From: Lineus longissimus
Lineage: Eukaryota > Nemertea > Pilidiophora > Heteronemertea > Lineidae
Assembly: GCF_910592395.1 (NCBI RefSeq)
Contig: NC_088312.1
Location: 11,408,001-11,472,000, forward strand
Direction: 5' to 3'
Length of the DNA stretch: 64,000 bases
A program made the position numbers and the translations under genes. Below the pieces are notes generated by a model. That model was not told the DNA's origin and ran no database searches. It saw only the letters and a program-made list of their open reading frames with translations. This document shows, one piece after another, positions 395 through 57,654 of this stretch (position 1 is the stretch's first letter; every line of letters starts with the position of its first letter).

Positions 395-775
395 TTCGAT
401 TTATGCCAGAGTCCTTCACAGAAAAATCCTCTGACATCTTTAGTTTGTGGAGCAGTTTCTACATCTCTTGAAAGTTCGGAGGATCGTTGGAAAAACCAGC
501 CTGGATTTCCAGCTAAGTGTACGACATGGAAGAGCTTGGAAAAGGGGTTCAGCGTGGAAAGTACCCTCATTCATCCCGTACGAGGTCATCACAGCGAGCG
601 TCGTCACAACTGTTCAATTTGTAATAAAGCATTTGTCAGTAAGAGTGACTTAGATCGACATTTTCTTACTCACACTGGTGATAAACCATATGGTTGTGAT
701 ATCTGTGGAAAGAGATTTAACCGGAAAGGAAACATGCGGACGCATCAGATTACTCATATGAATGTAAAACTGTAG
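395..775 (+). CDS. Zinc-finger terminal exon 1 of unit 1 (2 fingers)
   Basis: The exon begins after the acceptor gtaattccag and is open in phase 0 from TTC GAT TTA to the TAG at 773-775. The first 70 codons are a low-similarity spacer that keeps a remnant of a lost first finger (LVCGAV). Two C2H2 fingers follow, with helix residues (-1 to +6) SKSDLDR and RKGNMRT, joined by a HTGDKP linker. The protein end HQITHMNVKL resembles its neighbours. DNA binding in the nucleus is inferred from the family. The exon has no start codon of its own near the acceptor, so it must be reached by splicing. Confidence 0.85.
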   Translation, partial: FDLCQSPSQKNPLTSLVCGAVSTSLESSEDRWKNQPGFPAKCTTWKSLEKGFSVESTLIHPVRGHHSERRHNCSICNKAFVSKSDLDRHFLTHTGDKPYGCDICGKRFNRKGNMRTHQITHMNVKL

Positions 776-1394
776 CAAGCACAGACTTGTTTGTGAATTG
801 TTTTCAGAGTACATGTGGATGTCATAATGCTTGAAAAATGTTGATTCCAAGTTGCTTTGATTTTGGGGCTGATCAGATGACTCTTGTTGAACTTCGATAT
901 TAGGACTGATCCAACAATCTGTATGTCACTTTGATTTCGGGACATAGGTGACCCATGTGGTACTTTCAGTTCAAGACTGGTCCAGTCACTGTGTGACAAA
1001 ACTCACTGAGTGAGTTCTGAGTGAGTTTGTCAAACTTTAATTTTTTGGGCTGTTTTGACTTGCGTTATTTTGAAGTATGACTGGTGTGACCCCTTGATTC
1101 TGACTTCGATATTTGTTTATGGACTCATGATTTTGGGATTGATTTGATGTCTCACCCAGAGTGTCTGGTCGGGTGACCAATGTTAATTGATTCTCAAATC
1201 TGTTGTACAACTGCAGAATGTGATCACTGCCACTGAAGATATAAATCTTCCTCATTTCTGTTCTGCTTGCCAGCTTCAGTTCAGGTACGGTCTTGCTTTG
1301 CTTGCCAAGGTATTTTCTCTAAGCCAATCTCAATATTGGTGAAGTTTTTAGTGAAGTGCTTGCCACTGATGGGAATTATTCTTATATCTTCCAG
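776..1394 (+). other. Intergenic/intronic spacer
   Basis: No convincing coding sequence. It holds loosely repeated phrases built on 'ttcgatatt...gactgatc' and two extra acceptor-like pyrimidine tracts near 1255-1290, which lead only into short, stop-interrupted frames. The real acceptor of the next exon is at 1393-1394. Confidence 0.5.
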
Positions 1395-1736
1395 ATGGGA
1401 ATGCATAGATGTCCTATCTGTGGAGCTAACGCAAAGTCGCGTGAAAATCTCAGTGCCCATTTGCAAAGTCACCAAAGAGGGCTTCCACATCTATGTTCAT
1501 TTTGCAATAAAGGATTTAGCACACCACATAGATTGGAGCGCCATCTGCGTATTCATACCGGAGAGAAACCATATGGCTGTGATTGTTGTGGTTGGCGTTT
1601 TACTCAGCTGCAGACTCTAAAACGTCATTCGCGTGTTCATACAGGAGAGAAACCATATGCGTGTGATATTTGTGGGAAAAGGTTTTCTCAGAGGGGAAAT
1701 ATGAGGAGCCATCAGATCACGCATATGAAGCGTTGA
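1395..1736 (+). CDS. Zinc-finger terminal exon 2 of unit 1 (4 fingers)
   Basis: The acceptor atatcttccag leads in phase 0 into ATG GGA ATG CAT AGA TGT, so the first finger begins only five codons into the exon. Four fingers are present, with helices SRENLSA, TPHRLER, QLQTLKR and QRGNMRS. The first lacks the usual core Phe (CGANAKS) and is followed by a non-canonical HQRGLPH spacer. The last three are linked by HTGEKPY. The stop TGA follows HMKR. This is the longest finger run among the early unit 1 exons and a good representative of the ancestral exon form, before first-finger erosion. Confidence 0.92.
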   Translation: MGMHRCPICGANAKSRENLSAHLQSHQRGLPHLCSFCNKGFSTPHRLERHLRIHTGEKPYGCDCCGWRFTQLQTLKRHSRVHTGEKPYACDICGKRFSQRGNMRSHQITHMKR

Positions 1737-1896
1737 GGAAGACTGCATTTGGTTTCCTTGACAATTGGGGCATGTTGAATATTGTATGTTTTGTAAAGAA
1801 CTTATTAAGCGTCCTTCATATTGGTGTTTGTGTCCTCAAATCACTGTCATAGCTGGTCCCTTTTAAAATTTGAAAAAAATGCAAGAAATGAGAAAA

Positions 1897-1927
1897 CTGA
1901 CCAAAATATCTTTGTTGTATCTTGCAG
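1897..1927 (+). promoter_or_regulatory. Conserved branch-point/3' splice-site module (example)
   Basis: CTGAC lies 25-30 nt before the AG, followed by an AATAT-TTTG stretch and ATCTTGCAG. The same 30-nt arrangement precedes most unit 1 exons, for example near 2299, 3241, 3608, 4421, 4865, 5987, 6402, 8873, 9386 and 10183. CTGAC matches the metazoan branch-point consensus. Conservation may only reflect recent exon duplication, but it means neighbouring exons offer near-identical competing acceptors. Confidence 0.75.
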
Positions 1928-2209
1928 ATTTTTAATGAAACTTGTGTGACGAGGAACTCACTTCAAAGTCGAATGTGTGGTGAAAACGTTGCTTCTCATC
2001 TTCAGGTGCAGAGAAGATTCGTGCCATATTTGTGTTCAGCGTGTAATAAACGATTCAATTCTAAATGGCAGTTGACCCGGCATATGAGGGTCCATACAGG
2101 AGAGAAACCATACGCGTGTGACTTTTGTGGGAAGACATTTGCTCAGAAAGGCCACATGAAGTCTCATCTGATCACGCATCTAAAGAAGGGGGTATTTGAT
2201 CACCTGTGA
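1928..2209 (+). CDS. Zinc-finger terminal exon 3 of unit 1 (2 fingers)
   Basis: Opens in phase 0 after tatcttgcag (ATT TTT AAT GAA ACT). The leader IFNETCVTRNSLQSRMCG resembles the leaders of the exons at 3642, 4452 and 4893. A first finger survives only as MCGENVASHLQVQ, having lost one zinc cysteine and the final histidine. The two working fingers have helices SKWQLTR and QKGHMKS. After the last histidine the protein runs on to LKKGVFDHL and stops. An AATAAA lies 68 nt beyond the stop. Confidence 0.9.
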   Translation: MFNETCVTRNSLQSRMCGENVASHLQVQRRFVPYLCSACNKRFNSKWQLTRHMRVHTGEKPYACDFCGKTFAQKGHMKSHLITHLKKGVFDHL

Positions 2210-2276
2210 TAACTTGGCACTCACTGGCAAAGTGTAGTCCCCTTCTGTACAAAAACAAATGTAAATATAATACTAT

Positions 2277-2282: not shown

Positions 2283-2326
2283 ATGAATCACAAAAACTGA
2301 CAAAATATCTTTGTTGTATCTTACAG

Positions 2327-3268: not shown

Positions 3269-3556
3269 ATCCTGTATTTATCTTCTACGAGGAAGGGAAG
3301 GAATCCGCTTCAGTGCCCAGTCTGCGATGTGATTTTAAAGACACAGGAAAACTTAACAGCACATCTTCAGATGCACAAAGGCCAAGTGCCATATCCGTGT
3401 TCATTTTGTAATAAAGGATTTATGACCAACTGGAAGTTGACCCAACATCTGCGTATTCATACAGGAGAGAAACCATATGCATGTGACACTTGTGGGAAAA
3501 GATTTGCTCAGAAAAGTAACATGAGGGGTCATCAGGTGACTCATATGAAGCTTTGA
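3269..3556 (+). CDS. Zinc-finger terminal exon 4 of unit 1 (3 fingers)
   Basis: Phase-0 start ATC CTG TAT TTA after gtgtcttacag. The leader ILYLSSTRKGRNPLQ runs directly into finger 1 (CPVCDVILK, helix TQENLTA), which lacks the core Phe and is joined to finger 2 by KGQVPYP rather than TGEKP. Fingers 2 and 3 are canonical, with helices TNWKLTQ and QKSNMRG. The exon ends THMKL and TGA. It keeps an intact first finger, unlike its neighbours at 3642, 4452 and 4893. Confidence 0.92.
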   Translation: MLYLSSTRKGRNPLQCPVCDVILKTQENLTAHLQMHKGQVPYPCSFCNKGFMTNWKLTQHLRIHTGEKPYACDTCGKRFAQKSNMRGHQVTHMKL

Positions 3557-3641: not shown

Positions 3642-3923
3642 ATCTGTTATAAAACTTCTGTGGCCAAGAACCCTCTTCTAATTGGAGCAGGTGGTGTTCA
3701 TGCAAGGTCACCACCACATATAAGTTCTCATCCTCCAATCGACAAAAGAGCAGTGCCGTATTCCTGTTCAGTTTGTAACAAAGGATTTGCTGATAAATGG
3801 CAGTTCACTCGACATATGAGAATCCATACAGGAGAGAAACCATATTCATGCGAGATTTGTGGAAAGGGATTTTCCCAGAGAAGTAACATGAGGGGCCACC
3901 AGGTCACTCATATGAAACTTTGA
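3642..3923 (+). CDS. Zinc-finger terminal exon 5 of unit 1 (2 fingers)
   Basis: Begins ATC TGT TAT AAA ACT after tctatcttgcag and is open to TGA at 3921-3923. The leader [12 protein letters not shown] is shared with other unit 1 exons. The position of the first finger is a Pro/His-rich remnant ([17 protein letters not shown]) with no zinc cysteines. Two canonical fingers follow, helices DKWQFTR and QRSNMRG, separated by HTGEKPY. The final finger differs from that of exon 3269-3556 at only a few positions, indicating recent duplication. Confidence 0.92.
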
Positions 3924-4451: not shown

Positions 4452-4727
4452 ATCCTTTATGAACCTTTTGTGAAGACCCCACTTTCAAGTCAAGTGTGTG
4501 GTGTTGCAAAATTGCAAGAAAACCCAACTTCTCATCTTCAGCCCCAAAGGAGAGTGATTCCATATTCATGCTCTGTTTGTGGTAAAGGATTTACAGACAA
4601 CTGGAAGTTAACCCAGCACATGCGTATTCATACAGGAGAGAGGCCATATGCGTGTGATATATGTGGGAAAAGATTTTCCCAGAAAAGTCACTTAAGAGGC
4701 CATTTGGTGACTCATATGAAACTTTGA
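4452..4727 (+). CDS. Zinc-finger terminal exon 6 of unit 1 (2 fingers)
   Basis: Phase-0 start ATC CTT TAT GAA CCT after tatcttgcag. The leader ILYEPFVKTPLSSQ is followed by the finger remnant VCGVAKLQENPTSHLQ, which keeps one Cys and one His. Two intact fingers have helices DNWKLTQ and QKSHLRG, with HTGERPY as linker. The exon ends HMKL, TGA. An AATAAA at 4409-4414 just upstream may serve the preceding, now dead, exon. Confidence 0.92.
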   Translation: MLYEPFVKTPLSSQVCGVAKLQENPTSHLQPQRRVIPYSCSVCGKGFTDNWKLTQHMRIHTGERPYACDICGKRFSQKSHLRGHLVTHMKL

Positions 4728-4892: not shown

Positions 4893-5273
4893 ATCCCTTA
4901 TGAAACTTTTACGATGAAGAACCCACTTCAAAGACGAATGCCTAGTCTTAGTGGTGAAAACCTTGATTCTCATCTTCAAATGAAAACAAAAGCTGTGCCA
5001 CATTTGTGTTCAGTTTGTAGTAAAGGATTTTCTACATCTTGGGAATTGACCAGACATATGCGTATTCACACAGGAGAGAAGCCACATTCGTGTTCAGTCT
5101 GTAACAGAGGATTCATTGATAAATCTAAGTTGAAACGTCACATGAGGGTCCACACGGGAGAGAAACCATTTGCATGCGATATCTGTGGGAAAAGATTTGC
5201 TCAGAAAAGTGACATGAGAGCCCATCAGGTGACTCACATGAAACTTAGATTTCAAACAATGGAACATAGGTGA
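4893..5273 (+). CDS. Zinc-finger terminal exon 7 of unit 1 (3 fingers)
   Basis: Opens ATC CCT TAT GAA ACT in phase 0 after tatcttacag. The leader IPYETFTMKNPLQRRMP leads to a remnant first finger (SGENLDSHLQMK). Three canonical fingers have helices TSWELTR, DKSKLKR and QKSDMRA. The middle finger is unique within this sub-family and seems to have been added by internal finger duplication. The protein runs 10 residues past the last His (LRFQTMEHR) because the usual stop after HMKL is lost and the next in-frame TGA is used. Confidence 0.9.
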   Translation: MPYETFTMKNPLQRRMPSLSGENLDSHLQMKTKAVPHLCSVCSKGFSTSWELTRHMRIHTGEKPHSCSVCNRGFIDKSKLKRHMRVHTGEKPFACDICGKRFAQKSDMRAHQVTHMKLRFQTMEHR

Positions 5274-6020: not shown

Positions 6021-6284
6021 ATCCCCTTTGAAACTTTTGTACCGAAGAGCCCACTTCAAAGACGAATACCTGGTCATGGTGGTACAAACCTTGCTCCTCA
6101 GTATACAAGAGTTGTGCCACATTCGTGTTCAGTTTGTAACAAAGGATTCGCTGACAATTGGACTTTGACCCAACATATGCGTATTCATACAGGAGAAAAA
6201 CCATTTGCATGTGATATATGTGGTAAACGATTTAGTCAGAAGGGTAACATGAGAGCTCATCAGCTGACCCACATGAAACTTTGA
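6021..6284 (+). CDS. Zinc-finger terminal exon 8 of unit 1 (2 fingers)
   Basis: Open for 88 codons in phase 0 from ATC CCC TTT GAA ACT to TGA at 6282-6284. There is no ATG before the first finger, so it is easily missed by start-codon based calling; it makes sense only as a spliced exon. The leader IPFETFVPKSPLQRRIPG is close to that of exon 4893-5273. The first-finger region has no zinc ligands. Fingers: helices DNWTLTQ and QKGNMRA with HTGEKPF between them. An AATAAA lies at 6376. Confidence 0.92.
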   Translation: MPFETFVPKSPLQRRIPGHGGTNLAPQYTRVVPHSCSVCNKGFADNWTLTQHMRIHTGEKPFACDICGKRFSQKGNMRAHQLTHMKL

Positions 6285-6429: not shown

Positions 6430-6714
6430 ATCCTTTCCAAAACCTCTGTTGCGAATTACCACCAACTTGGATGTCCTATGTGTGACCATTTTGCCAAATC
6501 TGCCGCTAAGCTTAAAGCTCACATTCGAATGCACAAAGGAGAGATGCCATATCCATGTTCAATTTGCAACAAAGGTTTTATCAGTAATTGGAAGTTGGAA
6601 CGCCATATGAAGGTCCATACAGGGGAGAAACCTTACGCTTGTTCTGTTTGTGGGAGACGGTTTTCTGATAAGGACAACATGAGGGTTCATCAGGTGTGTC
6701 ATGTGAAACTCTGA
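6430..6714 (+). CDS. Zinc-finger terminal exon 9 of unit 1 (3 fingers)
   Basis: Phase-0 start ATC CTT TCC AAA ACC after tatcttacag. Finger 1 (CPMCDHFAK, helix SAAKLKA) is intact in zinc ligands and is joined by KGEMPYP. Fingers 2 and 3 have helices SNWKLER and DKDNMRV. The last finger ends HQVCH, so a Cys lies between the two zinc histidines. The exon finishes VKL, TGA. It belongs with exons 3269 and 7680, which also keep finger 1. Confidence 0.92.
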   Translation: MLSKTSVANYHQLGCPMCDHFAKSAAKLKAHIRMHKGEMPYPCSICNKGFISNWKLERHMKVHTGEKPYACSVCGRRFSDKDNMRVHQVCHVKL

Positions 6715-7679: not shown

Positions 7680-7961
7680 ATTATTCACAAATCGGCTGTG
7701 ACAAAGAACCCACTTCAGTGCCTTCTCTGTGGTGTTTTTGCCGAGACACAAGAAAAGCTTGCTTTTCATATTCGGAGGCATAAACAGTTATGTCAGTGTA
7801 CAGTGTGTAACAAAAAATTTCGTGATAACTGGGGGTTATCCCAGCATATGCGTATTCATACTGGAGAAAAACCATATGCATGTCACATTTGTGACAAGAG
7901 ATTTTCTATCAAAGGCAACATGAAGGCACATCAGATTACCCACATGAATCTTGACTTCTAG
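7680..7961 (+). CDS. Zinc-finger terminal exon 10 of unit 1 (3 fingers)
   Basis: Starts ATT ATT CAC AAA TCG in phase 0 after gtcttttgcag. Finger 1 (CLLCGVFAE, helix TQEKLAF) is complete and is joined to finger 2 by a short KQLCQ spacer instead of TGEKP. Finger 2 has helix DNWGLSQ and finger 3 IKGNMKA. It ends HMNLDF, TAG. An AATAAA begins 11 nt after the stop, giving a very short predicted 3' UTR. Confidence 0.92.
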   Translation: MIHKSAVTKNPLQCLLCGVFAETQEKLAFHIRRHKQLCQCTVCNKKFRDNWGLSQHMRIHTGEKPYACHICDKRFSIKGNMKAHQITHMNLDF

Positions 7962-8349: not shown

Positions 8350-8655
8350 ATCTCGCATCATTCTTTAAAGGCAAGGCTACAGTGTCCTACATGTGGTGTG
8401 TCAGCTAAGACTCCGGCAAATTTTGCTGCCCATATGAGGATTCATTCTGGAAAAGATCCATTTCCGTGTTCAGTTTGCCAAAAAGGATTTAGAACTAAAT
8501 GGGAGTTGACCCAACATACGAGAGTTCATACAGGAGAGAAACCATATGCATGTGACCTTTGCGGAAGACGATTTTCTGTCCGAAGTAATCTGAGGTCACA
8601 TCAAGTTACCCATATGAAATTTGACTCTGAGGAACAAAGAAGACCTAGAAAATAA
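8350..8655 (+). CDS. Zinc-finger terminal exon 11 of unit 1 (3 fingers)
   Basis: Phase-0 start ATC TCG CAT CAT after atatttgcag. Finger 1 (CPTCGVSAK, helix TPANFAA) has Ser in place of the usual core aromatic and a SGKDPFP spacer. Finger 2 is TKWELTQ and finger 3 VRSNLRS. The C-terminal tail (FDSEEQRRPRK) is charged and longer than in neighbours. The TAA stop at 8653-8655 lies inside an AATAAA (8651-8656), so stop and poly(A) signal overlap. An ATG at 8314 lies in the intron and is not needed. Confidence 0.92.
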   Translation: MSHHSLKARLQCPTCGVSAKTPANFAAHMRIHSGKDPFPCSVCQKGFRTKWELTQHTRVHTGEKPYACDLCGRRFSVRSNLRSHQVTHMKFDSEEQRRPRK

Positions 8656-8901: not shown

Positions 8902-9174
8902 ACGACTTCAGTACTACTGGAACGGTTACATTTTCCTAGTTTTGCTACAGAACTTCAAGCAAAGCTTGCTGCCCATGTACAGGTTCATTCCGGAAAATCT
9001 TCACACCCATGTTTGGTTTGCCATAAAGAATTTCGTGACGGCTGGAAATTGAAACGACATATGACTGTCCACACTGGAGAGAAACCATTTGAATGTGAAA
9101 TTTGCGGGAGATGTTTTTCTGTTAAAAGTAACCTGAGGGTACATCAAGTGACCCATATGAAAATGAACTTGTAG
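8902..9174 (+). CDS. Zinc-finger terminal exon 12 of unit 1 (2 fingers)
   Basis: Opens ACG ACT TCA GTA in phase 0 after atatcttgcag. The first finger has kept its helix and both histidines (ELQAKLAAHVQVH) but lost both cysteines (FPSFATE). Working fingers: DGWKLKR and VKSNLRV, with HTGEKPF. It ends HMKMNL, TAG. The terminal finger groups with that of exons 8350 and 9414 (VxSxL helix), distinct from the QKxNM type used elsewhere in unit 1. Confidence 0.9.
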   Translation, partial: TTSVLLERLHFPSFATELQAKLAAHVQVHSGKSSHPCLVCHKEFRDGWKLKRHMTVHTGEKPFECEICGRCFSVKSNLRVHQVTHMKMNL

Positions 9175-9413: not shown

Positions 9414-9686
9414 ATTTCTTATAAAACTGCAAAGGAATGGAAGAAATGTCGTATTTGTGGAAAGACTCCGGCAAATCTTACTGCCCATTTGCGGATTCAT
9501 TCTGGAGAGGCACCGTATCCTTGCTCCGTCTGTAATAAAGGATTTTTCGACAACTGGAAATTAACCCAACATATGAGGGTCCATACGGGAGAGAAACCAT
9601 ATAAATGTCGAATTTGTGGAAAATGTTTTTCTGTTAAAAGTACTCTCAATACACATCAGATAACTCATATGAAACTTGACTTATAG
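9414..9686 (+). CDS. Zinc-finger terminal exon 13 of unit 1 (2 fingers plus a short one)
   Basis: Starts ATT TCT TAT AAA ACT in phase 0 after tatcttgcag. Finger 1 is three residues short (CRICGKTPANLTAHLRIH, nine residues between Cys and His instead of twelve). Compared with exon 8350, the missing residues are those around the core aromatic. Fingers 2 and 3 are normal, with helices DNWKLTQ and VKSTLNT. It ends HMKLDL, TAG. Confidence 0.9.
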   Translation: MSYKTAKEWKKCRICGKTPANLTAHLRIHSGEAPYPCSVCNKGFFDNWKLTQHMRVHTGEKPYKCRICGKCFSVKSTLNTHQITHMKLDL

Positions 9687-10209: not shown

Positions 10210-10419
10210 ATGTATGATGTTGCCAGGAAGAACTCATGGAGATCATTTAAATGTGGAATGTGCCCAAAAGAATTTCATTCTAATTCTGACTTAGTTCGAC
10301 ATATGAGGGTCCATACAGGAGAGAAACCATATAAATGTAATATTTGCGGGAAAATGTTTTCCCAGAAAGGTAGCGTGAAGGTACACCAGTTGACTCATAT
10401 TGACACATTGATGATGTGA
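10210..10419 (+). CDS. Zinc-finger terminal exon 14 of unit 1 (2 fingers)
   Basis: A short exon of 70 codons opening ATG TAT GAT GTT in phase 0 after tatatcttgcag. The 17-residue leader has no first-finger remnant. Fingers: CGMCPKEF with helix SNSDLVR, and CNICGKMF with helix QKGSVKV. Tail HIDTLMM, TGA. It is a tandem duplicate of the next exon at 10489, only 69 bp downstream. Confidence 0.9.
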
Positions 10420-10488: not shown

Positions 10489-10713
10489 AAAAGGGAGATG
10501 CTTGAAGTTTCTGATGGCATGGCCAGGACGAGGAGGAAAGCATTCAAATGTTCCATGTGCCCGAGGGCATTTCTTTTCAATTCTGAATTTGTGCGACATT
10601 TGAGGGTCCATACAGGAGAGAAACCATATGCCTGCAATATTTGTGGAAAAAGGTTCTCAAAGAAAAGTAATATGAAGAGTCATCAAATTATCCATATTAA
10701 TCGTTACTTGTAG
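10489..10713 (+). CDS. Zinc-finger terminal exon 15 of unit 1 (2 fingers)
   Basis: Phase-0 start AAA AGG GAG ATG after tatatcttgcag. The acceptor is just 69 bp beyond the preceding stop, and its 30-bp upstream sequence is nearly the same as that of exon 10210. Fingers: CSMCPRAF, helix FNSEFVR, and CNICGKRF, helix KKSNMKS. It ends HINRYL, TAG. A basic stretch (ARTRRKAF) precedes the first finger. No remnant of an extra N-terminal finger is seen. Confidence 0.9.
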   Translation, partial: KREMLEVSDGMARTRRKAFKCSMCPRAFLFNSEFVRHLRVHTGEKPYACNICGKRFSKKSNMKSHQIIHINRYL

Positions 10714-11603: not shown

Positions 11604-11914
11604 ATTTTAAAACTTCTTTGAAGAGATTATGGCAATGCTCTACATGTGATAGGTCCTTCACATCTTCTCATTCACTAGAGGTTCATAACCGGCGACATAC
11701 AGGAGAGCACCCGTTTCATTGTTCAGTCTGTAAGAAGGGATTTGTTAAAAAGAATGATCTAGATAGACATATGAGGGTCCCCACGGGAGAGAAACCATTT
11801 CCATGTAATTGTAACAGTTGTGGGCAAAGATTTTCCATTAAAAGTTATATGAATATGCACCAACTGACTCCTATTGGGCATAAGAATAAATGGAATACAA
11901 AGCTTATGATATAA
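11604..11914 (+). pseudogene. Zinc-finger exon losing function (phase break, lost ligands)
   Basis: Acceptor tacatcttgcag is followed by 14 nt before the open frame, so phase-0 splicing reads ATT TTA AAA CTT CTT TGA and stops. Paralogues suggest one base was lost right after the acceptor. The downstream frame (11618-11914) holds finger 1 (helix SSHSLEV), finger 2 with the last zinc His replaced by Pro (HMRVP), and finger 3 with altered Cys spacing (CNCNSC) and a Pro at the last His. It could be used only by a splice in another phase. Confidence 0.75.
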
Positions 11915-13211: not shown

Positions 13212-13520
13212 TTCATGTCAGGCGGTCGGTGCCCATTGGAGTCGAGAAATGCATCAGCTGATGTGAATCAATATTCTGTCCCTGGATTCACCTTGACCGC
13301 CCCAGAAAATCTGAACAGCCTTTTGACGGCAACTTCTGGAGGACATTCCAGCATATTTAAGTGTCATATTTGTCAGAAAACCTTCTCACAAAGTGGTAAT
13401 CTCAAGCGACACATTCGCATCCACACAGGAGAGAAACCATTTAAATGTAGAATTTGTGGGAAAGGATTTGCACAGAGTAGTCATGTGAAGGCACACATGC
13501 TGGTTCATATGAAGTTTTAA
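13212..13520 (+). CDS. Zinc-finger terminal exon 16 of unit 1 (2 fingers)
   Basis: Opens TTC ATG TCA GGC in phase 0 after tatacttgcag. About 50 residues of Ser/Asn-rich spacer precede two canonical fingers, helices QSGNLKR and QSSHVKA, linked by HTGEKPF. It ends [11 protein letters not shown]. From here to 18541 the terminal fingers switch from the HQxTHMKL to the HMxVHxK end type, a distinct sub-family of exons. Confidence 0.9.
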
Positions 13521-14634: not shown

Positions 14635-14973
14635 TTTGGCCTCAGAAGAATTCAGGAGAGTAGTTCGGATCCTCAGCAACACAGCAAAAGCAGTTTTCTG
14701 AATGATTCAAGAAAAGTCCACTTCCAAGGCAAAGACCGCTGTAAAATCTGTAAAAGAATTGTCACCAATGTCGGAGTCCATATGCTAACTCATACAGGAC
14801 TAAAAGCACATGCATGCGACTTTTGTGGGAAACATTTTGCACGCAAGGATAACTTGAAGCATCATAGAATGATCCACACAGGAGAGAAACCTTACGTTTG
14901 TTCCATTTGTGGGAAAGGTTTTAATCAGATGACTCCCTTGAAGGGGCATATGATAGTTCATCTGAAGAAGTGA
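14635..14973 (+). CDS. Zinc-finger terminal exon 18 of unit 1 (2 fingers plus a short one)
   Basis: Starts TTT GGC CTC AGA in phase 0 after ctctttttcag. The first finger is short (CKICKRIVTNVGVHMLTH, nine residues between Cys and His). It is followed by canonical fingers with helices RKDNLKH and QMTPLKG. The first linker is TGLKAHA, the second HTGEKPY. Ends HLKK, TGA. It forms a sub-family with the exons at 15890 and 17141, all with the same short finger. Confidence 0.92.
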   Translation, partial: FGLRRIQESSSDPQQHSKSSFLNDSRKVHFQGKDRCKICKRIVTNVGVHMLTHTGLKAHACDFCGKHFARKDNLKHHRMIHTGEKPYVCSICGKGFNQMTPLKGHMIVHLKK

Positions 14974-15889: not shown

Positions 15890-16237
15890 TATGATATGAG
15901 AAGAATGCAGGAGAGGGGTTCAAATCGTTGGCCTATAAACCCGCCTGGTGGAGAAATTTTTGGAGAGGATTTTATGCCGCGCGCATTCCAGGATAGGCAC
16001 TTTTGTAAAATCTGCCAGAAAGTCTTCACGAACCTTGAGACCCATATGCTCATCCATACAGGAGAGAAACCACATGCGTGTGACTTTTGCGGCAAACGTT
16101 TCACCCAGAAAACTAATCTGAAGCATCATAGAATGATTCACACAGGAGAGAAACCATATGTTTGTTCTATTTGTGGGAAAGGTTTTAATCAGATGACTCC
16201 CTTGAAGGGGCATATGATAGGACATAAAAAGAAGTGA
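15890..16237 (+). CDS. Zinc-finger terminal exon 19 of unit 1 (2 fingers plus a short one)
   Basis: Phase-0 start TAT GAT ATG AGA after aatcgtttcag. A 35-residue leader rich in Gly, Arg and Pro precedes the short finger [18 protein letters not shown]. Compared with a normal finger it keeps the core Phe and Leu but lacks three residues of the helix start. Two canonical fingers follow, helices QKTNLKH and QMTPLKG; the last is identical to that of exon 14635. Ends HKKK, TGA. Confidence 0.92.
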
Positions 16238-17140: not shown

Positions 17141-17488
17141 ATTTCTTTTAGAAGATTTCAGGAGGGCATCCCCAGCCCATGGAAATATCCATCTGGTAGG
17201 CCTTGTGGAGTGTTTCAAGAAGACACAGGCATTGGTGACAAGGAAAAGTACATCTGCAGCGTCTGCAACAAGTCTGTTACCAACATGAAAGTTCATATTC
17301 TGACTCATACCGGAGAGAAACCACATGCGTGTGATATATGTGGGAAACGCTTTGCTCAGAAAAATAATTTGAAACATCACAGAATGATTCATACAGGAGA
17401 GAAACCATATGTGTGTCCTACTTGTGGGAGAGGCTTCAATCAGCGGGCACACTTGAAGGGGCACATGATAGTCCACATGAATGAATGA
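17141..17488 (+). CDS. Zinc-finger terminal exon 20 of unit 1 (2 fingers plus a short one)
   Basis: Opens ATT TCT TTT AGA in phase 0 after ggctcttttcag. The leader SFRRFQEG resembles LRRIQES of exon 14635. The short finger CSVCNKSVTNMKVHILTH lacks the same three residues as its relatives but has Val at the core position. Canonical fingers: QKNNLKH and QRAHLKG, with HTGEKPH and HTGEKPY linkers. Ends HMNE, TGA. Confidence 0.92.
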   Translation: MSFRRFQEGIPSPWKYPSGRPCGVFQEDTGIGDKEKYICSVCNKSVTNMKVHILTHTGEKPHACDICGKRFAQKNNLKHHRMIHTGEKPYVCPTCGRGFNQRAHLKGHMIVHMNE

Positions 17489-18103: not shown

Positions 18104-18541
18104 TTTGCTAAGGGAAGAAACCAAGAGCAGACGTCCACCCAGTCAACAATTCAGCATAGCGCAAGTTTAAGAGCCGGAGCTACTACTACTGGAGACAAAA
18201 AGCACTGTCAAACTTGTGAAATAGCCTTTTCTAATGACAACGATCTTCAAGAACACATGCGTAGCCATCCAGGAGTGATGATAAGTGGAGGGGATTTTCG
18301 GTGTCTTGTGTGTGCCAAGGCTTTTCATCGGAAAGGAGACCTCAAGCGCCATACGCTGATTCACACAGGAGAAAAACCGCATGCATGTGATTTTTGTGGG
18401 AAAAGTTTTGCTCAGAAATGTCACTTGAAACATCACAGAATGATCCACACAGGAGAGAAACCATATGTTTGTTCTATTTGTGGGAAAAGTTTTATCCAGA
18501 AAAGTGCTCTGAACGGTCACATGATAGTTCATATGTCATAG
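18104..18541 (+). CDS. Zinc-finger terminal exon 21 of unit 1 (4 fingers)
   Basis: Phase-0 start TTT GCT AAG GGA after cccatttttcag. A polar leader with a TTTGDKKH turn precedes four complete fingers with helices NDNDLQE, RKGDLKR, QKCHLKH and QKSALNG. Fingers 1 and 2 are separated by a 14-residue Gly-rich spacer; the others by HTGEKP linkers. Finger 1 has normal length where related exons have the short form. Ends HMS, TAG. Confidence 0.93.
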   Translation, partial: FAKGRNQEQTSTQSTIQHSASLRAGATTTGDKKHCQTCEIAFSNDNDLQEHMRSHPGVMISGGDFRCLVCAKAFHRKGDLKRHTLIHTGEKPHACDFCGKSFAQKCHLKHHRMIHTGEKPYVCSICGKSFIQKSALNGHMIVHMS

Positions 18542-19307: not shown

Positions 19308-19631
19308 CATTTTGGCCAAAACAGATGTCTGAGATCTCGTCCTATTTTTGCCACCAGAGCAACACCCAGATGTCCTATCTGTACTTCAACATTTAGCAGT
19401 GTTGGAAATCTCAAGGTCCACATGAGAACACACTCCGGTGAAAAACCATTTGAGTGCAAGTTTTGCCCGAAAGCGTTTGTTTCAACAACGCACTTGAAAC
19501 AGCACACACGGATTCACACTGGTGATAAACCATATGTTTGTCACATTTGTGGTAAGTCTTATTCCCAGGGCAGTCCTCTAAAGGTTCATCATATTCGATA
19601 TCATACAAATAAAGCAGAATCTCTCTATTAA
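19308..19631 (+). CDS. Zinc-finger terminal exon 22 of unit 1 (3 fingers), stop provided by a MITE
   Basis: Opens CAT TTT GGC CAA in phase 0 after tcttttccag. The 21-residue leader is Arg-rich. Three fingers have helices SVGNLKV, STTHLKQ and QGSPLKV. The last has a Tyr core and HHIRYH spacing (four residues between histidines). The frame then runs into the pogo-like MITE and stops at TAA 19629-19631, inside the element. An AATAAA at 19608-19613 lies within the coding part. It is the last exon of unit 1. Confidence 0.9.
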   Translation, partial: HFGQNRCLRSRPIFATRATPRCPICTSTFSSVGNLKVHMRTHSGEKPFECKFCPKAFVSTTHLKQHTRIHTGDKPYVCHICGKSYSQGSPLKVHHIRYHTNKAESLY

Positions 19632-41300: not shown

Positions 41301-42053
41301 ATCAACTTTAGAAGAAGTGAAAGTAAATCAAGAAGCCAACCTAAAGACAAGATGTTTGGTTGTGATGTTTGTGGACAGTGTTTCTGCCTGAAGAGTATCC
41401 TGAAAAATCACATGAAAGTTCATGCAAAAGAGAAGCGACACTTTTGTAGCAAATGTGATGAAGTATTTGAGTTTCGGGGTGAATTGAAACTGCACACCTT
41501 ACGTTGCCATTCATCCACAGTTGCTGTGGCTACTAAGTATTTAGGGAAGAACTTTGAATGTGAACTGTGCAACAAGGTCTTCATAGCTCCAAGTGCCCTG
41601 AAAGCCCACATTGTCTGCCATGCTGGAGAAAATCCATACAGTTGTCAATTTGAAACGTGTGGAGATCGGTTTTCAACGAAGCGTGCTTTGAGAGAGCATG
41701 TCAAGTCGGCTCATTCTGGGGAGAAGAATTTCGTATGTGATTGTGGGAAGATCTTCGATAGGAGAGATAACTTTGAGACGCATAAAACTGCTGTACATCG
41801 CAAGGAAAAGCCATACGAATGTGATGTCTGTGGCCGATGTTTTGCTGATAAAAGTAACGCCTTGCGGCATAAGTTGACCCACTCGGGGGTTCGACCACAT
41901 CAGTGTGAAGTCTGTGGGAAAAGTTTCAGTCAAAAGTTCTATTTAGGAGTCCATATGAGGGTGCATACAGGAGAGAAACCATTTGCTTGTAAAATTTGTG
42001 GGAGAACATTTGCGGACAGGCGAGTCATGAAAAAGCATGAGAAAAGACATTAG
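41301..42053 (+). CDS. Zinc-finger terminal exon 10 of unit 2 (8 fingers)
   Basis: Opens ATC AAC TTT AGA in phase 0 after tattttgcag; 250 residues. Ser/Arg leader, then eight fingers: LKSILKN, FRGELKL, APSALKA, TKRALRE, RRDNFET, DKSNALR, QKFYLGV and DRRVMKK. Finger 4 has an expanded Cys loop (CQFETC) and finger 5 a contracted one (CDC), so zinc binding there may be altered. Finger 6 has its core Leu displaced (NALRH). Tandem paralogue of 42557-43366 with the same finger order. Ends HEKRH, TAG. Confidence 0.95.
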   Translation: MNFRRSESKSRSQPKDKMFGCDVCGQCFCLKSILKNHMKVHAKEKRHFCSKCDEVFEFRGELKLHTLRCHSSTVAVATKYLGKNFECELCNKVFIAPSALKAHIVCHAGENPYSCQFETCGDRFSTKRALREHVKSAHSGEKNFVCDCGKIFDRRDNFETHKTAVHRKEKPYECDVCGRCFADKSNALRHKLTHSGVRPHQCEVCGKSFSQKFYLGVHMRVHTGEKPFACKICGRTFADRRVMKKHEKRH

Positions 42054-42556: not shown

Positions 42557-43366
42557 AGTGTTGGTGGAGAAGGGCAGTGGGACTGGAAACTAAAAGATTG
42601 GAGCAAGCCGGACAAAGGAACGCAGCCCATAGTCCGCACAAAAAGTAACAGCAAGCCATATGAATGTGATATTTGTGGAAAGCATTATAGTTACAGTATT
42701 ACTTTGAAACGTCACATGAGACTTCACACGGGAGAGAGGCCTCATGCGTGTAATGAATGTGGTGAATGTTTCAAGTACAAAGACGATTTGAGAAAGCATG
42801 TCTTACAGTGCCATCCATCAACAGATGCGGCTGCTTTAGAACAACGAAAAATGTTCCCGTGTAAATTTTGCGACAAGGTCTTCACTGTGCCGAGCACGCT
42901 GAAAGCTCACATGCCGATACATACTGGGGAGAAGCCTTACTGTTGTGAAATTTGCGGGAACCGTTATTATGCCAAAGGGGCCTTGAAGAAGCATGTGTAC
43001 TATATCCACAGCGGGACGTTAGAGAAACAATACACCTGTGATGTTTGTGGCAAAAGTTTCCTGAAAAACGCTCAACGTAAGAAGCATAAAATAGCTGTAC
43101 ATGACAAGGCAAAACCTTATAAATGTGAAATTTGTGAGAAGTGCATCGCGGATAGAAGTAACTTTGTTCGGCATATGTTGACGCATTCTCAGGTCCGGCC
43201 ATTTATATGTGAAATTTGTGGGAAAAGTTTTGTTCAAAAGTACAATTTAGTGATACATGTGAGGAATCATACAGGAGAGAAACCATTTTCTTGTAAAATT
43301 TGCGGAAAAGGATTTGCTGACAAACGGGAGGTGAAAAGGCATGAGAAAAATGTGCATTTCCAATGA
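42557..43366 (+). CDS. Zinc-finger terminal exon 11 of unit 2 (8 fingers)
   Basis: Phase-0 start AGT GTT GGT GGA after atattttgcag; 269 residues. Gly/Trp-containing leader (GEGQWDWKLKDW). Fingers: YSITLKR, YKDDLRK, VPSTLKA, AKGALKK, KNAQRKK, DRSNFVR, QKYNLVI and DKREVKR. Compared with the paralogue at 41301, fingers 4 and 5 have normal Cys spacing. The linker before finger 7 is HSQVRPF, matching HSGVRPH there. Ends HFQ, TGA. Positions facing DNA differ in nearly all fingers, so specificity has diverged. Confidence 0.95.
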   Translation, partial: SVGGEGQWDWKLKDWSKPDKGTQPIVRTKSNSKPYECDICGKHYSYSITLKRHMRLHTGERPHACNECGECFKYKDDLRKHVLQCHPSTDAAALEQRKMFPCKFCDKVFTVPSTLKAHMPIHTGEKPYCCEICGNRYYAKGALKKHVYYIHSGTLEKQYTCDVCGKSFLKNAQRKKHKIAVHDKAKPYKCEICEKCIADRSNFVRHMLTHSQVRPFICEICGKSFVQKYNLVIHVRNHTGEKPFSCKICGKGFADKREVKRHEKNVHFQ

Positions 43367-43975: not shown

Positions 43976-44281
43976 TGTTTTGCAGCAGAGACAGATCAGA
44001 TGCCAGTTGGTCATAGCTATCGCTTTAAATGTCAGGTTTGTGGAAAGATATCTAGTTCTCGATCTCATTTTGAAATTCATATGCGCGTGCATTCTGGAGA
44101 AAAACCATTTAAGTGCAGTTCTTGTGACAAATCTTGCTCGACTCGAGGGAACCTTGTCTCCCACATGCGTATTCATACAGGAGAGAAACCATTTGCTTGT
44201 ACTATTTGTCAAAAAAGATTTGCTCATAAACAACCTTTGAAGTTGCATTATGTCAGAGAACATCGGAAGACGATATCATGA
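43976..44281 (+). CDS. Zinc-finger terminal exon 12 of unit 2 (3 fingers)
   Basis: Opens TGT TTT GCA GCA in phase 0 after gctattttcag. Fingers: CQVCGKIS, helix SRSHFEI; CSSCDKSC, helix TRGNLVS; CTICQKRF, helix HKQPLKL ending HYVREH (four residues between histidines). The first two lack the core Phe (Ser and Cys there). Linkers SGEKPF and TGEKPF. Ends RKTIS, TGA. Last ZnF exon of unit 2; a TTAA MITE begins 17 bp later. Confidence 0.94.
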   Translation, partial: CFAAETDQMPVGHSYRFKCQVCGKISSSRSHFEIHMRVHSGEKPFKCSSCDKSCSTRGNLVSHMRIHTGEKPFACTICQKRFAHKQPLKLHYVREHRKTIS

Positions 44282-47721: not shown

Positions 47722-48372
47722 ATGAAGGACAGTACAAATTGTACTACAATGTCAATGCCAGAGTCTCAAGAAGAAGAGAGCAACCCATTCGAAAATATGC
47801 AGATGGAGCTGCACAGCAAAGGAGCTGTTCTGACCAAAGCCTGGTCTGACTTGTTTAGCTTTATTACAAAATATCAAGCAGAGCTGACAGTGAAGGAGAA
47901 CGCTGTTGAAATTGCTGAACGGGAGATTGATGTACGTAAAAGACAATTGGAGGAAATGAAACCGATGGTCGAAGCTGGAAACGACGAGATATCCAGATTA
48001 CAAGACGAGATTCAAACGAAGGAAAGACAGCTGAATAAGTCGCAATCTGAACTCCTTATGAAAGAACAGATGTTGCGAAGTGTGCAGTCAGACTTGTCTT
48101 GTAATATGGAACTTTTAGATAAAGCCAGATGTGATCTTTTAGACAGGCAATCAGAAATTGTGCGTAATAAAGGCGATTTAGAACGTTTAAAATCTGATCT
48201 GACTATAAAACAAGAACAAATTCAAATAAAGGACAACTTATTGGAAAAATTACAGAATCAGTTGATGAAAGAAAATGCCGAACTCAAGCAGCAGTATGAA
48301 TTGGAGAAACTGAAATTTGAATTGGAACAACAATCTCATGAACGCACAAAGAGAAGTCTGAGGGATAAATCA
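47722..48372 (+). CDS. Unit 3 N-terminal coiled-coil exon
   Basis: The exon begins after ttcacttgcag (47689). ATG at 47722 has an in-frame TGA 12 nt upstream, fixing the start. 217 residues to TCA|gtaagt, phase 0. Same order as 24057-24716: acidic Ser-rich start, LHSKGAVLTKAWSDLF, then about 160 residues of coiled coil. Seventy-four consecutive bases (47794-47867) are identical to 24117-24190, while the 3' third of the exon is clearly diverged. Reading through the donor adds 33 residues. Proposed shared dimerisation module of unit 3 proteins. Confidence 0.92.
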
Positions 48373-49039: not shown

Positions 49040-49660
49040 AAACATTCCATGTCTACCAGCAATGTGATAGAAATTCCAGACTCCCCTCCAACCCTTGATC
49101 TCTCTGTCGAACAGCCAGACTTTGGTCTCTCCAATATAATTTCGGTTGCTGAGGCCCAATCCAGACAACCATTGGAACAGGACTCGCAACCTTCACATTC
49201 CGAGAGCCAAACTTTATCGAATTTATCGAGACAGTTTTCAAATGCTCAAAGCTCTACGTCTGTGACTATAAAGCCAACAAAATCAGTTTGGCCTGTGATA
49301 TCCCCTTCAGTATCCTCATCATGCATTCAACGGTCAAATTCACCGTCACGTTCTTCAGTGCCCAATAGATCTCATAAAGAAACTGACAAGTTTGACATCG
49401 GTGATATCTCAGCCAGTGACATTTTCTTCCCATTGAGTATTTCACATGCTGAAGACGACAAAAGTTCTATTGACAAATCCAGCGGTGGTATGATGGTCAG
49501 TTCGGAAATGAACGACTTGAGGGGGATGCCAGGTTTAGAAATGAGTGACAGCAATCAAGAAATGCAGGTCCCAGAATCGGGGCCTATTCCAAGTACTGGG
49601 ATGTCGCCGCCGAGAGGCATGTCATTTATGGAGGGGATGCAAGAAGCATCTGATGGAAAG
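49040..49660 (+). CDS. Unit 3 linker exon with SUMO-interaction-like motif
   Basis: Phase 0 at both ends: AAA CAT TCC ATG after ctttttcag, and GAT GGA AAG|gtagga. 207 residues. KHSMSTSNVIEIPDSPP is the counterpart of the 25090 exon start, with TLDLSVEQ following. The middle is Ser-rich and more diverged. Conserved blocks: FFPLS, SDSNQ, SGPIP and EASDGK. Mid-exon Met/Gly-rich run near the end. Read-through would add VGISSAYCFRVSCLGS and stop. The conserved islands in an otherwise variable linker mark probable interaction motifs. Confidence 0.92.
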
Positions 49661-50690: not shown

Positions 50691-50936
50691 TTGGCTGATC
50701 CTGTCAGCAAGTTCGGAACTGGCCATTTCCCATCGAGGGCTACTTGTGCATACAAGTGCCATTTCTGTCCGAAGGTCTTCCGTTGGATATCACATCTGAA
50801 ACGTCACGAAACTGGCCACACTGGAGAGAAGCCATATGTGTGCAATATCTGCCACAAGAGGTTTAATAGGAAGGATACTATAAGACTTCACGTGGCTAAC
50901 GTTCATGCTGCCAGTTGGACACCTGATGCCAAATAG
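50691..50936 (+). CDS. Zinc-finger terminal exon 1 of unit 3 (2 fingers)
   Basis: Opens TTG GCT GAT CCT in phase 0 after tattttgcag. Fingers: CHFCPKVF, helix WISHLKR; CNICHKRF, helix RKDTIRL ending HVANVH. Linker TGEKPY. The ending (LHVANVHAASWTPDAK) is matched by LHTFNVHRELLEFPDAV of exon 51253. AATAAA at 50948-50953, only 12 nt beyond the TAG. Confidence 0.93.
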   Translation: MADPVSKFGTGHFPSRATCAYKCHFCPKVFRWISHLKRHETGHTGEKPYVCNICHKRFNRKDTIRLHVANVHAASWTPDAK

Positions 50937-51252: not shown

Positions 51253-51573
51253 TCCATGCGTACAAGGATCGAAAAAGTTCCAAGTTTATCCTCGGAATCA
51301 TTTCGTTGCAATGTGTGTCATCTTTCGGTGAGCTCAGCTCCTTCTTTGGTTCGACATATGAGGATTCACACAGGAGAGAAACCATATGCGTGCCATCTTT
51401 GCAGCGCAGCGTTTTCTCAGAGTAACTCGTTGCACCGGCACGTTAGACTTCATACAGGAGAAAAGCCATTCAAATGCAGTTTCTGTGAGAAAAAGTTTCA
51501 TCGTCGAGACGCTATTAGACTACATACCTTTAATGTTCACAGGGAACTGCTGGAATTCCCAGATGCTGTGTAA
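51253..51573 (+). CDS. Zinc-finger terminal exon 2 of unit 3 (3 fingers)
   Basis: Phase-0 start TCC ATG CGT ACA after cttcatcttgcag. Fingers: CNVCHLSV, helix SAPSLVR; CHLCSAAF, helix QSNSLHR; CSFCEKKF, helix RRDAIRL with HTFNVH. The last finger is a duplicate of that in exon 50691, with an added first finger. Stop TAA; AATAAA at 51613-51618, 40 nt later. Confidence 0.94.
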   Translation, partial: SMRTRIEKVPSLSSESFRCNVCHLSVSSAPSLVRHMRIHTGEKPYACHLCSAAFSQSNSLHRHVRLHTGEKPFKCSFCEKKFHRRDAIRLHTFNVHRELLEFPDAV

Positions 51574-51942: not shown

Positions 51943-52239
51943 TTCATATTGAAGAACAAGAGACAAGGCTCGGTCATGGAGGATGATCGCAAAAGAAAGT
52001 GTCCAATTTGTGGGATACAGGTTAATCAGCATAAATTGAGGTGGCACATGCAGACTCATTCAGACGATAAGTCATTTCGATGTTCAATTTGTCCCAAGGC
52101 ATTTCGTCAGAAATCTTGCCTGACCCGTCATCTTCGTATTCATACAGGAGAAAAGCCATTCGTGTGTAAAACTTGTGGGCGTGGTTTCGCTCAGATTGGA
52201 AATTTGAGCGTGCATCAAGTTGTTCATTTTGAAACGTAA
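51943..52239 (+). CDS. Zinc-finger terminal exon 3 of unit 3 (3 fingers)
   Basis: Opens TTC ATA TTG AAG in phase 0 after tgttctttcag. Finger 1 ([20 protein letters not shown]) is one residue short of the standard Cys-His spacing. Fingers 2 and 3: QKSCLTR and QIGNLSV. Linkers SDDKSF and TGEKPF. Ends HFET, TAA; AATAAA at 52253-52258, 14 nt on. Confidence 0.93.
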
Positions 52240-53070: not shown

Positions 53071-53075
53071 CTTGG

Positions 53076-54345: not shown

Positions 54346-54672
54346 CGATACCCAGCATCTACCCCACCGAGCCGAAGGGGACTGTACCGCAGAAGATTTG
54401 GTCATTGGGCAACGGGTCGATATCAGTGCCTAATCTGTGGGAATAGGTTTTCGTTAAAAAAACATTTGGAAGTTCACATTCGTATTCACACAGGAGAAAG
54501 ACCATTTCAATGCGAATATTGCACAAAAGCGTTCACAACGAATGGAAATTTACGCAGTCATCTGAATACGCATACTGGTGCGAAGCCATTCATTTGTCAG
54601 TTCTGTCTCCTTGGATTTGCCCACCAGGGAAATTTGAGGAAACATATGCAGAAGGTACATGGGCAGCAGTAG
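54346..54672 (+). CDS. Zinc-finger terminal exon 4 of unit 3 (3 fingers)
   Basis: Phase-0 start CGA TAC CCA GCA after gtttttccag. Arg-rich leader (PSRRGLYRRRFG). Fingers: CLICGNRF, helix LKKHLEV; CEYCTKAF, helix TNGNLRS; CQFCLLGF, helix HQGNLRK ending HMQKVH. Linkers TGERPF and TGAKPF. Finger 3 resembles the last finger of the broken exon at 55984 (VCQLGVADQSNMRNH). Stop TAG. Confidence 0.94.
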   Translation, partial: RYPASTPPSRRGLYRRRFGHWATGRYQCLICGNRFSLKKHLEVHIRIHTGERPFQCEYCTKAFTTNGNLRSHLNTHTGAKPFICQFCLLGFAHQGNLRKHMQKVHGQQ

Positions 54673-55957: not shown

Positions 55958-55983
55958 TAAGAGCTTTTATTAATTTTTGACAG

Positions 55984-56518
55984 TGCAAACGTGGATTTGA
56001 TGAACAGAACGGAAGAGGACGGAACCTGGGAAGATTTGACCACCGGGCACCACGTCCATTTCAATGCCAAATTTGTTGGAAAATATTTTCGCAAAAAGGG
56101 CATGTTGATGTTCACTGTTCACATGCGTATTCATACAGGAGAAAGACCATATGTGACCCATTCCAGCAAAACCAGTCGCATGTCGCTCTGAGCTTGACAG
56201 GTTGAGACGGACCGTTTGTTCATTTCACTATTGTCTGCCTTTTGTGAAATCTGACGACATCAATTTCTTCTATTATCTCCAGGTGTCATATAGGCTCATC
56301 TTATGTGCGACATGCGACTGGTTTTGCTAGAACGTGTCACATATGTGTGCAATGTATGCACAAAGGCAATTACAACTTATGGAAATCTACGAGCTCACAT
56401 GACTATGCATACTGGTGCAAAGCCGTTTGTGTGTGGGGTATGTCAGCTTGGAGTTGCTGACCAGAGTAACATGAGGAATCATATGAAGAAGGCACACAGG
56501 CAGTGGCGACACACATGA
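55984..56518 (+). pseudogene. Zinc-finger exon broken by a 7-bp duplication and a MITE
   Basis: Phase-0 start TGC AAA CGT GGA after atttttgacag. Leader, then finger 1 (CQICWKIFSQKGHVDVH), where tgttcac is tandemly duplicated (56109-56122), shifting the frame. The linker reaches TGERPY, at which point a 190-bp MITE (56152-56341) is inserted. Finger 2 continues as CNVCTKAI, helix TYGNLRA, then CGVCQLGV, helix DQSNMRN, and stops at TGA 56516-56518. The C-terminal fingers are intact. Confidence 0.85.
56152..56341 (+). mobile_element. MITE, TA-flanked, TGTGACCC family, inside a finger linker
   Basis: Begins TGTGACCCATTCC and ends AACGTGTCACA; the target TA is duplicated. The target lies in the Tyr codon of the GERPY linker. 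Removing the element and one TA restores the linker codons, so the insertion is precise. Confidence 0.9.
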
Positions 56519-56759
56519 TTGAAATCTCAACTGTTCCGCCCAGCCTGCCTTGATGAAGCTGGTAGTGAATGAGAATCACAATAGTGCCTTCGAACTTTAG
56601 TATGTGTTTTATGCTGCCTTGTGTCGAGGGAGAGATGTGTAAATCTACTGACAAAATATTCCAAAAGATGTGATTTCAGATTGTACCGATAGACTGCTTT
56701 TGAAGAAAGAAAAACTTAGGTTTAGGATTTTGATATATTACTGATCGAAGGTCCACATA

Positions 56760-56982
56760 TGTGACTCGCTCTACCAAAACTAGGCGCTTGTCGCATCTGA
56801 ACTCGACAGGTTGATACGGACTTGTTATTCATTTCCCTATAGTAGACCTTTTGTGAAATCTATTACAAACTGATTTGGTCACATTTCACAAAAGGTCTAC
56901 AATAGGGAAATGAACAACAAGTCCGTATCAACTTGTCAAGTTCAGATGCGACAAGCGCCTAGTTTTGGTAGAGCGGGTCACA
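56760..56982. mobile_element. Foldback MITE, TGTGACTCGCTC family (copy 2)
   Basis: TA on both sides; long arms as in 11013-11202, with an extra internal piece (tagtagaccttttgtgaaatc) that lets nearly the whole 223 bp pair. Confidence 0.9.
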
Positions 56983-57345
56983 TATTTGTAATTTTATGAC
57001 TTCAAACTGATTCTGCTTGGTGCTCAACCACTTAATGCCGCAATAAAATTTTTCTTACCTTACCGCTCTGCCGGAATTAATTGCAGGAAAACAACATTTT
57101 TCGTTTTTGCAGCGGCCATCGATCAAGTGCTGCCAGTTGGTGTTTTTGTGCAGAACGAAGCCGCCTCAGTTTCAGTTTACGCTGGGGATTCCCCACGATT
57201 GTTTGAATAGGGGTTTTAGTACAGGATTTTACATGGAACAATCCTGTGGATGGCTGACGTATATATACGTCTTGCGGCATAGGAGTTCGCGTGTATATAC
57301 GTCTTATGGCATTAGGTGGTTAAAATACAAATTTTGTCTTTACAG

Positions 57346-57654
57346 AAAAGAATGCCCAACAGAGAAGCACACACATCGGTGTTTTTTGAAGGATCGAGAC
57401 GATCGCTCTACAAATGTCAACAATGTGGGACCGTCTCAAGTAGTCACCGGAACCGCGACGTTCATCTCAGGACTCATACAGGAGAAAGACCATTTAAATG
57501 CAACGAATGTGAAAAAAGTTTCACCTCTAAAGGAAATCTACAAGTTCACATGCGTATTCATACAGGAGAGAAGCCATTCAGTTGTAATATTTGTGGAAAA
57601 TGTTTTGCCTGGCCGAATATACTTAAAGTACACAAAGTGGTTCACCAAATGTGA
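57346..57654 (+). CDS. Zinc-finger terminal exon 5 of unit 3 (3 fingers)
   Basis: Opens AAA AGA ATG CCC in phase 0 after gtctttacag. Fingers: CQQCGTVS, helix SHRNRDV (Arg where the core Leu is usual); CNECEKSF, helix SKGNLQV; CNICGKCF, helix WPNILKV. Linkers TGERPF and TGEKPF. Ends HQM, TGA. Just after the stop, CEKVLPQNGIYELREGIQ and DEKPFTYTIC in another frame are remnants of one more finger. Last intact ZnF exon in the window. Confidence 0.93.
   Translation, partial: KRMPNREAHTSVFFEGSRRSLYKCQQCGTVSSSHRNRDVHLRTHTGERPFKCNECEKSFTSKGNLQVHMRIHTGEKPFSCNICGKCFAWPNILKVHKVVHQM

Follow-up and report, generated by a model that had tools for sequence, protein, structure and literature searches.

How does a locus with dozens of zinc-finger reading frames, each closed by its own stop codon, make complete proteins when only two N-terminal regions lie among them? 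The question is raised by a window of 64,000 nucleotides from the nemertean worm Lineus longissimus (contig NC_088312.1, positions 11,408,001 to 11,472,000 of the forward strand), whose first letter is position 1 of all coordinates below. We consider it highly probable that the window holds parts of three adjacent genes of one L. longissimus multigene family, and that in these genes one constant start is joined by splicing to one of many alternative zinc-finger tails. Each gene would consist of two constant coding exons, one for a coiled coil and one for a linker with the motif VIEIPDSPP, with alternative terminal exons arranged in tandem behind them. The one phase-0 donor that follows the residues ...DGK would be joined to a phase-0 acceptor chosen from many, and the stop codon and polyadenylation (poly(A)) site of the chosen exon would end the message. 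The product would combine the constant dimerisation region with a single DNA-binding tail out of many, and each tail may read its own DNA site. The evidence consists of observations on exon anatomy, splice phase, coding constraint, tail diversity and the match of three window tails to public gene models; that these models reflect RNA is what we infer.

Exon anatomy and public gene models

A six-frame scan of the window, which has a guanine-cytosine content of ~40%, found the strict C2H2 motif in 46 open reading frames (ORFs) with 128 fingers, all on the plus strand and none on the minus strand. These ORFs form three blocks, with 23 before 23.9 kb (unit 1), 15 at 29.6-44.3 kb (unit 2) and eight at 50.6-57.7 kb (unit 3), and the blocks are separated by an N-terminal region of two exons, present in two copies. 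Every one of the 46 ends in a stop codon, as a preliminary description of the locus had reported. The two N-terminal exon pairs of that description are also found, both on the plus strand and with all donors and acceptors in phase 0. Exon 1 (24057..24716 in unit 2, 47722..48372 in unit 3) encodes an N-terminus with a long coiled coil; exon 2 (25090..25668 with VIEIPDSPP in unit 2, 49040..49660 in unit 3) encodes the linker and ends in ...DGK at a phase-0 donor.

The phase of the acceptors was examined by scoring, for each zinc-finger ORF, every AG that precedes the first finger, whatever its phase. The highest-scoring acceptor was in phase 0, 1 or 2 in 35, 7 and 4 of the 46 ORFs, and in 18, 1 and 3 when a score of at least 5 was required. 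By comparison, control ORFs of at least 70 codons without the strict finger motif gave near-flat distributions (plus strand 28/21/24, minus strand 30/32/33). For 40 ORFs a phase-0 acceptor could be assigned before the first finger, close to the roughly 39 exons first proposed; six ORFs (4133, 34062, 34921, 36074, 53350 and 53532) were left out of the exon set. The 40 phase-0 acceptors were picked by hand, and their composition (37 CAG, 2 TAG, 1 AAG) is not independent evidence. They divide into 22 for unit 1, 12 for unit 2 and 6 for unit 3, so that the proposed figure of more than 20 isoforms per unit is reached in unit 1 and not in units 2 and 3.

Public proteins show the same division into constant and variable parts. 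When the unit 2 N-terminus was searched against proteins, 71 matched at E <= 0.001, comprising 62 L. longissimus proteins named 'isoform Xn' and nine metagenome fragments from JGI. Three pooled searches gave 77 proteins, 68 of them from L. longissimus, in 24 N-terminal groups, or 25 with unit 2. The three units described at first are thus present in the window and belong to a larger family. Eighteen of the 24 groups contain two or more models, and isoform numbers differ within every group. In 17 of these 18 the models are identical for 399-455 residues and then continue into different tails, and the common N-terminus ends in ...DGK in 12 of the 18. The exception is the pair P0012/P0041, which splits at residue 236, with P0041 lacking part of the linker; the finger tails of this pair differ as well.

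Three tails of the window can be placed in such models. The RefSeq model P0011 corresponds in the protein search to 47722-48372 + 49040-49660 + 51253-51573, with 100% identity over unit 3 exon 2, and so contains the predicted junction from 49660 to 51253. The exons 8350-8655 and 3269-3556 are the tails of P0006 and P0007, at 99.0% over 102 and 96 residues, and the single mismatch in each is read as the junction residue. Alternative tails behind one N-terminus had been proposed from the letters of the window, and the models that diverge after an identical start agree with this; the sites named for it (donors 25668 and 49660, acceptors 29695, 31474, 33435, 50691 and 51253) are all present. The N-terminus of P0006 and P0007 matches units 2 and 3 inexactly (88% and 76% over exon 1), and the N-terminus of unit 1 is absent from the window. 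By sequence, unit 1 is therefore a separate gene, its N-terminus being identical to neither of the other two, and its constant exons may lie just upstream of the window.

These data bear on the suggestion that each zinc-finger ORF is a single-exon gene in its own right, or a retrocopy, and that the isoform models arose as errors of annotation. The separate stop codons of the ORFs agree with this explanation, as does the fact that clusters of separate C2H2 genes are common in animals. The explanation leaves the phase-0 acceptors ahead of the fingers, where the controls are near flat, and the constant/variable break in 18 N-terminal groups without an account. Moreover, in five of the nine metagenome fragments (P0050, P0053, P0069, P0070 and P0071) the in-frame donor sequence at the end of exon 1 or exon 2 reads alike, as VSI.. 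or VGI.., and this too speaks against such an explanation. We regard independent genes as very improbable.

The constant region and its probable coiled coil

The preliminary description placed a coiled coil where comparable insect genes have a BTB domain, and the domain searches agree with this. In the constant region of unit 2, Pfam searches found no domain above the cut-off and no BTB domain, and neither KRAB nor SCAN was found there or in the unit 3 linker ORF. No PDB sequence matched the constant region at E <= 0.001. The best Pfam match, RACo_linker, and a match to HMMR_N lay in the coiled coil below the cut-off and were treated as coiled-coil noise.

The hydrophobic period of exon 1 is 3.50 in unit 2 and 3.52 in unit 3, and an equally strong signal occurred in 0 of 500 shuffles for each. 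Within residues 43-160 of unit 2, one heptad position is occupied by I, L or V in 17 of 17 heptads. When this heptad frame is applied to the alignment of 25 N-termini, positions a, d, e and g are more conserved (mean entropy 0.82-1.04) than b, c and f (1.28-1.65). AlphaFold2, run on a single chain with a 31-row alignment, predicted one helix over residues 18-219 with a mean predicted local distance difference test (pLDDT) value of 90.1. Exon 1 is thus consistent with a very long coiled coil of ~200 predicted residues that resembles a leucine zipper. It could allow dimerisation, also between isoforms or paralogues. Two results limit the support for such pairing: the second heptad core position of unit 2 is mixed, with K, A, R and L the commonest residues, and the predicted template modelling score (pTM) of the AlphaFold2 model, itself a single-chain model, is 0.40.

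Between units 2 and 3, exon 1 has a ratio of nonsynonymous to synonymous substitution rates (dN/dS) of 0.16. The linker motif VIEIPDSPP or a close variant is present in 20 of the 25 N-termini. It resembles a SUMO-interacting motif and, by this analogy, may bind SUMO.

Tails, counter-evidence and alternatives

All tails lie on the plus strand. In unit 1, those with a phase-0 acceptor include 395..775, 1395..1736, 4893..5273, 6021..6284, 6430..6714, 7680..7961, 9414..9686, 14635..14973, 17141..17488, 18104..18541 and 19308..19631, to which the P0007 tail at 3269..3556 is added. For several others a second site scores better than the one chosen. This second site is also in phase 0 for 1928..2209 (2006, slightly better), 4452..4727 (4542) and the P0006 tail 8350..8655 (8371, slightly better). 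It is in phase 2 for 3642..3923 (3590) and in phase 1 for 10210..10419 (10124), 13212..13520 (13306) and 15890..16237 (16062, slightly better), while 8902..9174 has both a phase-2 site (8826) and a phase-0 site (8983) with better scores. The acceptor of 10489..10713 is weak, and 11624..11914 is doubtful, with an AAG acceptor and two better-scoring phase-1 sites.

Unit 2 has phase-0 tails at 29695..30279 (six fingers), 31474..31749, 36639..36938, 37414..37830, 39443..40477 (eight fingers), 41301..42053 (six strict fingers), 42557..43366 (eight fingers) and 43976..44281, together with 31103..31387 (TAG acceptor), 38260..38571 (weak acceptor score), 34766..35068, which is 83% identical to the tail of P0001 from a paralogous gene, and 33435..33758, probably the first half of a two-exon tail that would continue at 34142..34328. 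The unit 3 tails are 50691..50936, 51253..51573 (the tail of P0011), 51943..52239, 54346..54672, 57346..57654 and the doubtful 56294..56518 with a weak TAG acceptor. No docking element for splice control was recognised when the upstream flanks of the tails were compared by eye; the flank matches look like adjoining finger-coding DNA or dispersed repeats.

Further features lie among the tails. Finger-like stretches without the strict motif occur at 2-205, 2680-2891, 5606-5813, 13768-14082, 31862-32144, 32878-33072 and 58038-58325. The best match is interrupted by a stop in three of four of them (2-205, 2680-2891, 13768-14082 and 58038-58325), and the stretches are probably decayed tails, some with stops. 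Between two of the unit 1 tails, in antisense orientation, is a full-length match to U11 small nuclear RNA (18689-18814, minus strand; Rfam RF00548, 97.1 bits against a gathering threshold of 39), and its 5' end, AAAAAGGGC, and AUUUUU stretch agree with the consensus. The repeats between units are satellites and inverted repeats. Directly upstream of unit 2 exon 1, 22815-23587 holds two direct copies of 284 bp with identical sequence (at 23019 and 23304) plus a 93% inverted copy of 154 bp, perhaps a mobile element on the promoter side. A dispersed repeat, 83% identical between its copies, precedes a unit 1 tail and a unit 3 tail (11008-11205 and 56755-56985, coordinates derived from flank offsets). 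A tandem repeat with a period of ~191 bp and six to seven copies follows the last unit 3 tail (58445-59891).

The tails are diverse in what they may recognise. All 46 window ORFs have distinct contact-residue signatures, with 119 distinct quartets among the 128 fingers. A comparison of 12 related unit 1 exons gives dN/dS values of ~0.02 for the zinc and core positions, 0.36 for the contacts and 0.20 for the remaining sites; in a second set of four exons the values are 0.00 at structural positions, 0.25 at contact positions and 0.09 elsewhere. As dS is near saturation, only the order of the classes is meaningful. The finger scaffold is kept and the contact positions change faster. Positive selection at the contact residues is not claimed, as dN/dS is below 1 and dS near saturation.

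Beyond the window, tails were compared in 66 of the 68 L. longissimus proteins, P0054 and P0063 having no recognisable junction. An exact stretch of 20 residues is common to two pairs among the 66: P0060/P0074, which share a true tail part, and P0012/P0041, where only linker is shared. A loose C2H2 pattern is present in 60 tails and missing from six. In two of these fingerless tails, P0008 and P0072, the DNA-binding domain of Tc5 transposases (PF03221) is present, with CENP-B_N in P0008 just below the cut-off; this suggests that Tc5-type tails are transposon exons captured by the array. No close match to the P0008 tail was seen in the window. The tails of P0060, P0066 and P0074 have no fingers and no Pfam family.

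Several results weigh against the joining of one start to alternative tails. The best acceptor is not in phase 0 in 11 of the 46 ORFs, and the RefSeq isoform models are NCBI predictions. AATAAA, which was said to lie often near the tails, occurs within 600 nucleotides of the stop in 20 of 46, against 22.3 expected at random positions; this is chance level, and the signal was rejected as support for the tail ends. Serial exons are involved in P0060/P0074, where P0074 has the P0060 tail behind an extra stretch (serial or optional exons). In the window, 33435-33754 + 34142-34328, with a phase-2 donor GTGAGT at 33755 and a phase-2 acceptor, probably form one serially spliced two-exon tail, a reading suggested by the related tail in the paralogue P0005. 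Finally, two protein searches with different length ranges found no protein with the unit 2 N-terminus, and the closest is a paralogue at 83%.

A further possibility is that the tails are trans-spliced to the constant exons from separate pre-mRNAs begun inside the array, as is reported for Drosophila lola and mod(mdg4), instead of being selected within a single long transcript. P0011 argues against this, since it pairs the unit 3 N-terminus with a tail just downstream and simple cis-splicing suffices, but the evidence is weak because annotation pipelines assume cis-splicing. On the other side, the AATAAA count does not point to strong poly(A) sites at the individual tails. The layout is also that of Drosophila lola, which uses both cis-splicing and, for some isoforms, trans-splicing (PubMed Central PMC1947980; PMC11426971). 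We consider trans-splicing unlikely here.

The two-exon tail at 33435 is also what would be expected if the exons were spliced serially into large poly-zinc-finger proteins, as are the long tails of 10-12 strict fingers in P0073, P0075, P0076 and P0077. The stop at the end of every zinc-finger ORF of the window stands against such splicing, and none of these four long tails has an exact stretch of 20 residues in common with another of the 66. Serial splicing as the general rule is scarcely credible to us.

The missing unit 2 protein could mean that unit 2, and some unit 1 tails, are a silent or decaying copy and that units 1 and 3 alone work here; the decayed finger relics point the same way. 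However, the ORFs of unit 2 are intact, its exon 1 is constrained relative to unit 3 and 11 of its 12 listed tails have an acceptor score above 4. We therefore hold a silent unit 2 to be a minority possibility, if one to be taken seriously, and continue with one constant start and alternative tails in all three units.

Family spread and comparison with known systems

The N-terminus tree (25 rows) pairs unit 2 with its 83% paralogue at a support of 100/99; the rows P0054 and P0063 are cut inside a finger, which affects their long branches. This paralogue also holds kin of the unit 2 tails, with 83% identity for the 34766 exon, 74% for 33435 and 68% for 34142, and some tails were thus duplicated together with their gene. 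Model names such as 'sal-like', 'Krueppel-like factor 8' and 'B-cell lymphoma 6 protein homolog' vary among models with the same N-terminus and so label single tails, not orthologues. The label 'KRAB and SCAN domains 8-like' belongs to a paralogue outside the scanned constant regions.

All L. longissimus family proteins but one are listed with a 23.9 Mb record, P0028 being on a 19.2 Mb record. Chromosome 5 of the species has 23.94 Mb (PMC8593623). The highest isoform numbers, summed over the 24 groups, give 149, a tally that assumes continuous isoform numbering within one gene. Outside L. longissimus, the protein searches found no relatives except the nine metagenome fragments. An alignment search at E <= 10, which scored the 7997 candidates with most words in common, gave 73 proteins, 65 from L. 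longissimus and eight metagenome fragments, with none elsewhere. Each of the nine fragments has 47-81% identity to its closest L. longissimus relative, and these relatives belong to seven N-terminal groups. Judged by these identities, they would most simply come from other species, probably nemerteans, or else from unannotated L. longissimus copies. If they are from other species, much of the paralogue diversity would predate the species split.

Like lola, the worm genes, as read from the gene models, join a constant region to many alternative 3' terminal exons. According to PMC1947980 and PMC11426971, lola has a constant N-terminal region and alternative C-terminal exons, with C2H2 fingers in 17 of 20 isoforms. 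Unlike the worm genes, which have a coiled coil without a BTB match, lola has a TTK-type BTB domain, a type called Arthropoda-specific in the title of PMC11426971. Furthermore, lola is one locus, whereas in the worm unit 2 comes on top of 24 annotated N-terminal groups. For mod(mdg4), a constant N-terminus and at least 30 isoforms are described (PMC11426971). Here too some tails lie outside C2H2, although mod(mdg4) combines BTB with mostly FLYWCH tails and the worm a coiled coil with mostly C2H2 and two Tc5-type tails. From its sequences, the worm family would work like lola and mod(mdg4) without being a member of their group, as its constant region has no BTB domain.

Two other designs invite comparison from general knowledge. 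Vertebrate KRAB/SCAN C2H2 clusters resemble the worm arrays in their tandem growth and in contacts that change faster than the scaffold. Each gene of such clusters has its own N-terminal domain, whereas in the worm one N-terminus serves a row of tails. Dscam1-type and protocadherin-type arrays join tandem variable exons to constant exons; these are surface receptors, and in protocadherins the constant exons are 3'. The worm variable exons, unlike these, are 3' and, by their domains, DNA-binding.

To our knowledge, alternative terminal exons of the lola type are known only from arthropod BTB genes, and among open-licence PMC papers, by title and the start of the abstract, none was found that describes the worm family. 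The family seems to represent a rare gene design that arose independently here and on a larger scale. As a tentative proposal, held with somewhat less than even confidence, it could form a nemertean combinatorial DNA-recognition system independent of that of insects. Such a system would comprise ~25 related genes, almost all of them located on a single chromosome, ~150 or more exchangeable tails with captured transposase domains among them, and pairing coiled coils, giving thousands of possible composite readers for cell identity or mobile-element recognition. The family would make it possible to test how a single donor selects from over 20 acceptors and whether dimer partners widen DNA recognition. 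The same layout with an unrelated N-terminus and ~25 paralogues in another phylum would show a repeatable route to large transcription-factor repertoires.

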